DNA from: Candidatus Paceibacterota bacterium | GTDB taxonomy: Bacteria > Patescibacteriota > Minisyncoccia > Phycocordibacterales > CAJBRS01 | Assembly: GCA_035652395.1 (NCBI GenBank) | Contig: DASRDX010000012.1 | Location: 160,778 to 209,154 of the forward strand | Length of the DNA: 48,377 nucleotides | Direction: 5' to 3' | Part shown: one piece after another, positions 2,383-45,850 of the stretch | Numbering within the stretch: the first letter of the stretch is position 1 | Layout of the letters: each line of letters starts with the position of its first letter | Notes under the pieces: model-generated | What the model saw: the letters and a program-made list of their open reading frames with translations, nothing else | Databases searched by the model: none | What the model was told of the DNA's origin: nothing | Program-made: the position numbers and the translations under genes

Positions 2383-2405
2383 TATGTATGTATATCTTTT
2401 CTAAA

Positions 2406-3629
2406 ATGACTAAAAAGATCATTTTCGCACTTGTTCTCCTTATCCTCATCTTAGGTGGTATCTTTTTAACTTTTAAAACTCAACCGGCAGCTCTGGCCCA
2501 AAGCGGCACTTTCACCGCTGGAGTTCACGCTGTGCATGGTTATGCCTGGTCCAGTAATTTCGGCTGGATTAAATTTGATCCAGCGTTCGGCGGAGTCTTT
2601 GCCAGCACGACCGGAGCCTCAAGCGCCATTCTCACCGGTTACGCTTGGTCAAATCCCCAAGACGGAGCGGCTGCAAGCAACAACATTGGCTGGCTAAGTT
2701 TCAATGATTATTCCGGTTGTGGATCTCAACCAACTATTGATCTTTCGACGGGTGCTGTCAGTGGTTGGGCCCGTTTTTATAACGCCATCAGTCAGTCCGG
2801 CAACGATGGAAACTGGAGCGGTTGCGTTCATTTAAGCGGTCCAACTTACAGCTCGGCTGTGACAACGGGCGCTAGTCCAAGTTTTACTCAAGGCAGCTAC
2901 TGGTGGGGCGGCGATTTTCCAACAGCTTCAAGTAGTGTCGGCTGGATTCATCTTTGCGGCAGCAATTACTGCGTTACCATTGACGCGGCCACTACCACTC
3001 CGGCTACTGCACCCGGTGTTCCGTCAAATTTGCATCAGACAAACGCCGGCGTCTGCGATAGCTTCGGTGGTATTGTCAATCTTGCCTGGAATGCCGGCAG
3101 TCCTGCTCCAAATACTGCGAACGGCGGAGGTTATTACGTTTATCAAACTGATTCAACCGGCAACACTACTATTAAGAAAACAGTTTCTTACTCGACAACC
3201 GCTTCTATCGGAGGCTTGGCTGTAAATGGGACCTTCTACTTTAAGGTCACCGCCATTAATGTCGGTGGCGGCTCAGTGGCCGAGAGTGCCCCAACTTCCG
3301 TAGTCACTACCACTAGTTCAAAAGTCTGCAACAGCGCCAACACAGCCATTATCTTCAATGCTGTTCCTCCAACCGTGCCGAGAGGAGGCACTTGCAAACT
3401 GGTCTACACGGTTTCATTCCCAAGTGGTTGTACCATTACCAGCGCCGGCAATCAGGATTCGGCCTTTCCATTCTCTTTTGTTTCCGCCACCGGTACTACG
3501 CCTTCCAATCCGACAAGCGGCACGACTACCACCTCAAGAATTTACAAGACAATTGATTACACCCTAACTTGCGGCAGCTTAAGTGCTAAGACCACTTGCG
3601 CCATTGCGCCAGCTTTTAACGAATTCTAA
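2406..3629 (+). CDS. secreted GYAWS-repeat / fibronectin III-like surface protein
   Basis: The protein from ATG 2406 has 407 residues; an in-frame ATG at 2388 would add six, but it overlaps the predicted transcription start. MTKK plus a long hydrophobic run and a site near QPAALAQ form a signal peptide. Residues about 40-190 carry imperfect repeats of an aromatic motif: HGYAWSSNFGWIKFDP, TGYAWSNPQ...NIGWLSF, SGWARF and SSVGWIHLCG. From about 205 to 305 a fibronectin III-like domain is suggested (PGVPSNLHQT ... GGLAVNGTFYFKVTAINVGG). The C-terminal part contains spaced cysteines. It is probably exported and displayed. It opens a four-gene cluster of secreted or membrane proteins; the exact role is unknown. 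Confidence 0.7.
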   Translation: MTKKIIFALVLLILILGGIFLTFKTQPAALAQSGTFTAGVHAVHGYAWSSNFGWIKFDPAFGGVFASTTGASSAILTGYAWSNPQDGAAASNNIGWLSFNDYSGCGSQPTIDLSTGAVSGWARFYNAISQSGNDGNWSGCVHLSGPTYSSAVTTGASPSFTQGSYWWGGDFPTASSSVGWIHLCGSNYCVTIDAATTTPATAPGVPSNLHQTNAGVCDSFGGIVNLAWNAGSPAPNTANGGGYYVYQTDSTGNTTIKKTVSYSTTASIGGLAVNGTFYFKVTAINVGGGSVAESAPTSVVTTTSSKVCNSANTAIIFNAVPPTVPRGGTCKLVYTVSFPSGCTITSAGNQDSAFPFSFVSATGTTPSNPTSGTTTTSRIYKTIDYTLTCGSLSAKTTCAIAPAFNEF

Positions 3630-44929: not shown

Positions 44930-45127
44930 ATGTACGACCAACGTCGATACAAAAGAGATTTAAGAAAAGCAGTTAAACCACTAAAGCAGAGAGGAAAGGA
45001 ATTCTTAAGGGCTGTTCCTAAAGGTTCCCTCAAATCATCCTGGCCAACATTCAGAATGGTGCTACGGCTCGCCCTATTTCTAGTGCAAGCGCTCTTCTTC
45101 AGTGGTCGGAAAATTCTCAATAAATAA
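44930..45127 (+). CDS. small basic protein with hydrophobic C-terminal segment (65 aa)
   Basis: Starts ATG 44930, 5 nt after a full Shine-Dalgarno AAGGAGGT (44918-44925), which is exceptional in a region where most genes lack one. The first 45 residues are highly basic (YDQRRYKRDLRKAVKPLKQR). Residues about 45-58 are hydrophobic (MVLRLALFLVQALFF), ending SGRKILNK. It may associate with membrane or nucleic acid. A strong promoter and terminator make it a real, highly expressed gene. No family recognised. Confidence 0.65.
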   Translation: MYDQRRYKRDLRKAVKPLKQRGKEFLRAVPKGSLKSSWPTFRMVLRLALFLVQALFFSGRKILNK

Positions 45128-45149: not shown

Positions 45150-45187
45150 AATGCCGTCCGGACGAATTCGGACGGCATTTCTTATTT
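45150..45187 (+). terminator. terminator of the 65-aa gene
   Basis: 11-bp stem AATGCCGTCCG/CGGACGGCATT (45150-45160 with 45169-45179), 8-nt loop, then TCTTATTTTT. Confidence 0.88.
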
Positions 45188-45232: not shown

Positions 45233-45260
45233 TTGCATTTATTTTGGAGAGGAGAATAAT
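45233..45260 (+). promoter_or_regulatory. promoter of the candidate structured RNA
   Basis: TTGCAT (45233-45238), 16 bp, AATAAT (45255-45260). The predicted start at about 45267 coincides with the first base of the RNA's closing helix. Confidence 0.45.
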
Positions 45261-45266
45261 GGGGGC

Positions 45267-45396
45267 AGGATTATTCAAAGACATTGTCTAGATTACTAAC
45301 GTAATCAGGGAGCCTATTTTGTAGATGAGAACCTTGGTTTTCACCTCAGGGCACCCACCTGGCATAAAGCTGGGCTAAATGTCAGAGGATAATCCT
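45267..45396 (+). ncRNA. candidate structured non-coding RNA
   Basis: The intergenic stretch folds by eye into a closed molecule. P1 is AGGATTAT (45267-45274) with ATAATCCT (45389-45396). After a 5 by 5 internal loop, P2 is GACATT (45280-45285) with AATGTC (45378-45383). Inside are a hairpin GATTAC/GTAATC (45291-45306) and a hairpin TGAGAAC/GTTTTCA (about 45327-45344), plus AGCC/GGCT pairing (45311-45314 with 45373-45376). No frame of useful length is present. A 14-bp hairpin (45401-45432) follows. It matches no RNA family I can recall in detail (tmRNA, RNase P, SRP, common riboswitches). A 6S-like role is one possibility. Confidence 0.5.
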
Positions 45397-45400
45397 ATCG

Positions 45401-45432
45401 AAGAGCCGTTTGCCGGAAGGCAAACGGCTCTT
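45401..45432 (+). terminator. 14-bp hairpin after the RNA candidate
   Basis: AAGAGCCGTTTGCC (45401-45414) pairs perfectly with 45419-45432, loop GGAA. There is no T-tract beyond TT. The next extended -10 (TGGTATAAT) overlaps its last base. Confidence 0.6.
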
Positions 45433-45440
45433 GGTATAAT
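45432..45440 (+). promoter_or_regulatory. extended -10 promoter of the membrane-protein gene
   Basis: TGGTATAAT with perfect hexamer 45435-45440. The -35 region is inside the hairpin. The leader to ATG 45461 is about 14 nt. Confidence 0.55.
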
Positions 45441-45460: not shown

Positions 45461-45850
45461 ATGAAATCTTTTTTTATCCTTCTTCTTTCCTTAATATTGA
45501 TCGGTATCACCATAGGTATCGATCATCTTTCTAAACATTTTTATTTATACTGGCAGACCGGCTGGATTGACGCTTCAGTCCACTTTTTAGGCGGTTTGAG
45601 CGCTACATTATTTTTTAGTTGGGTATATTTTTACACCAATCTATTTAAAAATCCTTTACCCAGAAAGAAATCTACACTTGTTCTATTTGTTTTATACATT
45701 TTAATAGTCGGTATTCTCTGGGAGATTTACGAATATCATTTCGGTTTCAGTTTTTTCTCTCAATATTTCGTTTCCGACACTATCTCTGATTTAAGTATGG
45801 ACGTTTTAGGCGGTTTGCTGGCTTATTTTCTGACAACTTTTTTGATTTAA
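45461..45850 (+). CDS. four-span membrane protein, DUF2238/YjdF-like
   Basis: 129 residues with hydrophobic segments at about 3-20, 41-58, 69-87 and 110-128. Conserved-looking polar residues lie next to the membrane: DHLSKHF, ASVHFLGGLSA, GILWEIYEYHF and DTISDLSMDVLGG. This pattern of His/Gly, Trp-Glu-x-x-Glu and the Asp-rich DTxxDLxxDxxGG resembles DUF2238 (YjdF) membrane proteins. The function is unknown. It is followed after 18 bp by the metallo-hydrolase gene with its own -10 box. Confidence 0.65.
   Translation: MKSFFILLLSLILIGITIGIDHLSKHFYLYWQTGWIDASVHFLGGLSATLFFSWVYFYTNLFKNPLPRKKSTLVLFVLYILIVGILWEIYEYHFGFSFFSQYFVSDTISDLSMDVLGGLLAYFLTTFLI

Follow-up and report, generated by a model that had tools for sequence, protein, structure and literature searches.

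Organization of the locus

The window analysed here, 48,377 nucleotides long, belongs to a 0.79-Mb assembly of a Paceibacterota (Patescibacteria) bacterium. On its plus strand, to which all features below refer, a spacer separates a 65-aa open reading frame (44930-45127) from a small membrane-protein gene (45461-45850). Read in order, this spacer holds TTGCAT (45233-45238), AATAAT (45255-45260), a 135-nt element (45265-45399), a 14-bp hairpin (45401-45414/45419-45432) and, directly after it, TATAAT (45435-45440). Judged by sequence, the first two motifs are a weak -35-like element and a -10 element; a generic promoter scan of the window did not list the pair. The hairpin is a probable terminator, the T-run of which is weak to absent in the window genome.

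The TATAAT motif is probably the -10 element of a separate promoter that serves the membrane-protein gene downstream (ATG at 45461), and the same motif is found 5' of the membrane-protein gene in L004, a relative from the same genus. Since the hairpin runs straight into this motif, terminator and promoter are packed into ca 40 bp (45401-45440), and they abut in the same way in L004. The gene itself encodes a predicted membrane protein of 129 residues that has no match in Pfam; a similar protein is encoded beside the RNA in L004 and L006.

On the other side, the 65-aa frame is preceded by a near-perfect promoter (TTTACA-17-TATAAT, with TG before the -10 box) and has neither a match in Pfam nor a counterpart at the same place in L004. 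Downstream of it lies a strong terminator-like hairpin (45150-45179), which sets the RNA element apart from upstream transcription.

Fold and parts of the RNA

The segment 45262-45400 folds to −48.4 kcal mol−1 with z = −4.5, and none of 200 shuffled sequences was equally stable; folded together with the 14-bp hairpin, the element gives z = −6.2. A preliminary description of this DNA had proposed a non-coding structured RNA of about 130 nt at this place, and the fold, the conservation and the compensatory changes described below all bear this out for 45265-45399. These boundaries are those set by R2, a refined covariance model of 70 sequences, which matches the window nowhere else (93.3 bits, E 3.7e-20). 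Among the homologues the median length is 129 nt, with a range of 112-159.

The closing stem P1 has 10 bp (45267-45276/45387-45396); the terminal helix proposed earlier, 45267-45274/45389-45396, is thus real and somewhat longer than described. It is followed by P2 (45279-45285/45378-45384), the downstream helix beside the bubble, whose outermost pair is an A-A mismatch in the window sequence. The 5' side of the central bubble (45286-45307) contains a 6-bp hairpin, GAUUAC/GUAAUC, that lies outside the consensus structure. Beyond it the bubble is bordered by the apical-side helix GGG-A-GCCU/GGGC-A-CCC (45308-45315/45349-45356), identified by its conservation and its match to the 6S consensus, and the rod ends in a shortened apical arm hairpin (45324-45345). 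On the way back come the 3' central-bubble hairpin CCUGG/CUGGG (45358-45374), which is the fifth helix and is seen in the fold, the model and the covariation, and the 3' strands of P2 and P1 (45378-45396), placed by model and fold. GGGA is near-invariant, being present in 69 of the 70 homologues, as is CCCAC (69/70), while ACCCACCU occurs in 57.

Homologues and covariation

A DNA similarity search of 60 relatives returned a single full-length homologue, from the same genus and 79% identical. DNA matches in L002 and L005 were rejected as RNA homologues, as they cover the 3' hairpin alone and lie on the opposite strand. In another genome, a weak match to the Rfam 6S family (RF00013) is located at the same place, 3' of the nucleoside diphosphate kinase gene, and shares with the window RNA the motif GGGAGC...GCACCCACCU. 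Searched by itself, this pattern occurs in 27 of the 197 genomes of the order, compared to one for the reversed control.

A covariance model built from 13 sequences, all from the order (R1), matches 152 of these 197 genomes (77%), nearly always once per genome, and 93 of a phylum-wide sample of 380 genomes. With R2 the latter number rises to 158 (42%), normally in single copy, and the RNA is kept across at least 100 genera. Because strict filters were used, these counts are lower bounds; outside the order, either real loss or the reach of the models may explain the lower rates. Antisense matches of 30-37 bits mirror the rod-like structure and were rejected as separate genes.

The window genome has one copy of the RNA. 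In two other genomes a second, weaker 6S-like copy is found beside the first, in L010 at 1754-1882 (−) together with 1462-1612 (−), and in L159 at 2843-2969 (+) together with 2387-2516 (+). These weaker copies score 36 and 44 bits, respectively, and the one in L159 is followed by a terminator-like hairpin. A tandem 6S-1/6S-2 arrangement in Patescibacteria is a possible reading of these pairs. Between the two copies in L159, at 2650-2680, there is also a near-perfect inverted repeat, tttgcctgcctgccggtaggcaggcaaaa.

In the alignment of 70 sequences, 91.9% of the cells are paired, compared to 68.3% with shuffled partners and 36-48% when the structure is slid along the alignment, and the covariation score is 0.643, compared to 0.212 and 0.08-0.13, respectively. 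Two-sided changes are present at 34 of the 39 pairs. They occur at every pair of P1 (10/10) and P2 (7/7), where compensatory changes had been named beforehand as the check to make, and at all ten pairs of the apical arm; all five helices are backed by both fold and covariation. It is important to point out that this alignment was fitted to the structure. The count was therefore repeated on a MAFFT alignment of 13 sequences made from sequence only, which gives 89.2% paired cells compared to 38-48% slid, and a covariation score of 0.433 compared to ca 0.1. The RNA structure is under selection.

Promoter, terminator and gene context

A promoter upstream of the RNA had been suggested, and the homologues support it. 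A TATAAT-like box with at most one mismatch lies 5-18 nt 5' of the RNA in 49 of 70 homologues, compared to 16 in an equal control stretch. The position of the box peaks at exactly −10, and many homologues have TTGCA-like boxes at the spacing of the TTGCAT element in the window. The downstream hairpin, too, recurs: a terminator-like hairpin with a T-run follows the RNA in 34 of 45 homologues from the order, compared to 0.8% in shuffled sequences. Outside the order the same simple rule finds it in 2 of 25 sequences, in part owing to the shorter portion of the stem that the model spans in them.

The RNA lies 3' of the nucleoside diphosphate kinase gene, on the same strand, in 58 of the 80 public Patescibacteria contigs that hold this gene, separated from it by a median of 98 nt. 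Genomes from outside the order have other neighbours, for example tRNA genes downstream, and the RNA is kept, as expected for a trans-acting RNA. Conservation, covariation and recurring signals support the view that it is a free-standing gene with its own promoter.

Probable identity as a 6S RNA

We now turn our attention to the family to which the RNA belongs. At the gathering threshold, Rfam gives no match on the window, and the window sequence scores 10.1 bits with RF00013, below the cut-off of 46.4. RF00013 was also run in 100 genome searches, covering the 60 relatives and 40 phylum genomes picked for having an R1 match, and in none of them did a Patescibacteria sequence reach the cut-off. 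However, below this threshold 18 matches (E ≤ 1) were obtained, and all 18 overlap an R1 match on the same strand. Since R1 was built from the order only, the 15 coincidences outside the order are independent of its training set.

When all 4227 Rfam families were considered, seven loci outside the order gave a full-length RF00013 match with scores of up to 42.5 bits and E of 1.1e-5 to 4.1e-4, and these seven showed no match to any other family. Of 20 loci from within the order, 4 show a 6S match on the RNA, and no other family is found there repeatedly. The near-invariant GGGAGC...GCACCCACCU equals the RF00013 consensus at the apical border of the central bubble: the bubble-border sequence of 6S, GGGagccc/gggcaCCCACCU, is present, and the Rfam consensus GGGagccc...gggcaCCCACCUggaA corresponds to the near-invariant part of the Patescibacteria RNA. 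A closing stem, a large central bubble and an apical stem are present on a single rod, encoded by a short gene of its own that is matched once in almost every genome with a match. Some 25-30 positions of the RF00013 model, which make up the distal apical arm, are absent.

In the reverse direction, R1 and R2 do not recognise E. coli ssrS as 6S (4-5 bits at best), and the link to 6S therefore rests on RF00013 finding the Patescibacteria RNA. For the window RNA, which scores 10 bits alone, the probable 6S identity passes through the relatives.

The RNA is homologous to RF00013, conserved, base-paired and normally single-copy, and it carries promoter and terminator signals of its own. The preliminary description had put it forward as a candidate new RNA of no recognised family. 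Such novelty is not supported, and the claim gives way to that of a divergent, shortened 6S RNA scoring below the Rfam threshold. We consider it very likely that the element is the ssrS gene of Patescibacteria, encoding a minimal 6S RNA, ca 130 nt long, that would mimic an open promoter.

Proposed function

On the basis of the homology, holoenzyme sequestration followed by pRNA-driven release is the most likely function. The closing stem, P2, the large bubble with its 3'-bubble hairpin and the short apical arm would together mimic an open promoter, and the RNA would bind the holoenzyme of RNA polymerase and housekeeping sigma in slow or host-starved cells, thereby blocking transcription. The polymerase would then use the 5' side of the bubble (ca 45280-45293) as template for a short pRNA, the synthesis of which would open P2 and release the enzyme. 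One sigma70-type factor was found in the window genome (a sigma70 region-3 gene). By analogy with U44, the start position in E. coli, the RF00013 alignments of E. coli and a relative suggest a pRNA start near 45293, with 45280-45293 as the predicted template and AUCUAGACAAUGUC as the product.

This scheme follows what is established for 6S RNAs, in which the bubble mimics an open promoter and is bound by the housekeeping holoenzyme, and pRNA synthesis opens P2 and frees the enzyme (PMC9130861, PMC8876501, PMC8414754). A B. subtilis 6S-1 trimmed to the bubble plus a pair of short arms can complete the 6S cycle in vitro, with ca tenfold weaker binding (PMC8876501), which makes a natural form of 130 nt plausible. 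The 3'-bubble hairpin is predicted to form when the RNA is free, which resembles B. subtilis 6S-1 and differs from E. coli (PMC8876501).

Alternative interpretations

Homology does not fix the binding partner, and one can ask whether this is a 6S-derived RNA with a changed function, similar to Ms1, which is structurally related to 6S and binds core RNA polymerase without sigma. The RNA is shortened, and Ms1 itself was initially regarded as a 6S candidate (PMC9130861). However, with ca 300 nt and extra terminal hairpins (PMC9130861), Ms1 is the opposite of the 135-nt form, 6S is the only Rfam family that matches, and the 6S bubble consensus is kept. Identity with Ms1 is rejected on the basis of its size and the absent match, and a changed function of this kind appears unlikely.

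Another option is a cis-acting, riboswitch-like leader that controls the membrane-protein gene through the 14-bp hairpin. The RNA lies ca 60 nt 5' of this gene in the window, and a similar gene follows it in L004 and L006. However, no strand of P1 or P2 is part of the hairpin, the gene has its own TATAAT 3' of the hairpin, and in some relatives outside the order tRNA genes take its place downstream while the RNA is kept. With the hairpin independent of P1 and P2, the downstream genes varying and the homology to 6S, this reading is rejected as highly improbable. Finally, a fold arising by chance in a spacer without function, for which nothing speaks except that a single spacer is small, has a practically negligible probability, considering the z of −4.5 and the conservation across the phylum, and is refuted by the compensatory changes.

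Significance

6S RNA has been described in nearly all bacteria (PMC8414754), and Patescibacteria, which are among the largest radiations of bacteria, would be counted as devoid of it, since no sequence in the 100 genome searches reached the Rfam cut-off. Among the open-access papers searched we found none on 6S RNA in Patescibacteria or the candidate phyla radiation; the main surveys could contain an earlier report. We somewhat favour the view that the RNA represents an unannotated, phylum-wide minimal class of 6S, in which the bubble and two short arms are naturally sufficient in host-dependent, genome-reduced bacteria, possibly with altered release and, in some lineages, a tandem copy. For host-dependent cells the RNA is a candidate global transcription switch, for example for persisting away from the host, and it illustrates the small size that a 6S RNA can have in nature. 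The alignment supplied here can be the basis for a proper Rfam model.

Comparison with known RNAs

Ms1 of Actinobacteria shares with the present RNA a rod-like form with a central bubble resembling 6S, but it has ca 300 nt, extra hairpins at both ends and binds the core polymerase (PMC9130861). The tandem 6S genes of the Bacillus cereus group (PMC7726162) have their likeness in the second copies of L010 and L159, while the window genome differs in having one copy.

The closest counterpart is 6S/SsrS (RF00013; E. coli ssrS, B. subtilis 6S-1). Known members usually have 160-200 nt (PMC8414754), a common property and not a functional criterion, compared to ca 130 nt here; the 6S RNA of Aquifex, with ca 160 nt, is named among the shortest (PMC9130861). 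The gene context also differs, as the Patescibacteria RNA lies 3' of the nucleoside diphosphate kinase gene and not beside ygfA. What the two have in common is the succession of elements along the whole model, the GGGAGC...GCACCCACCU border of the bubble, a closing stem at the transcript start, a separate gene with promoter and terminator, and a 3'-bubble hairpin, for which B. subtilis 6S-1 provides a comparable example (PMC8876501).
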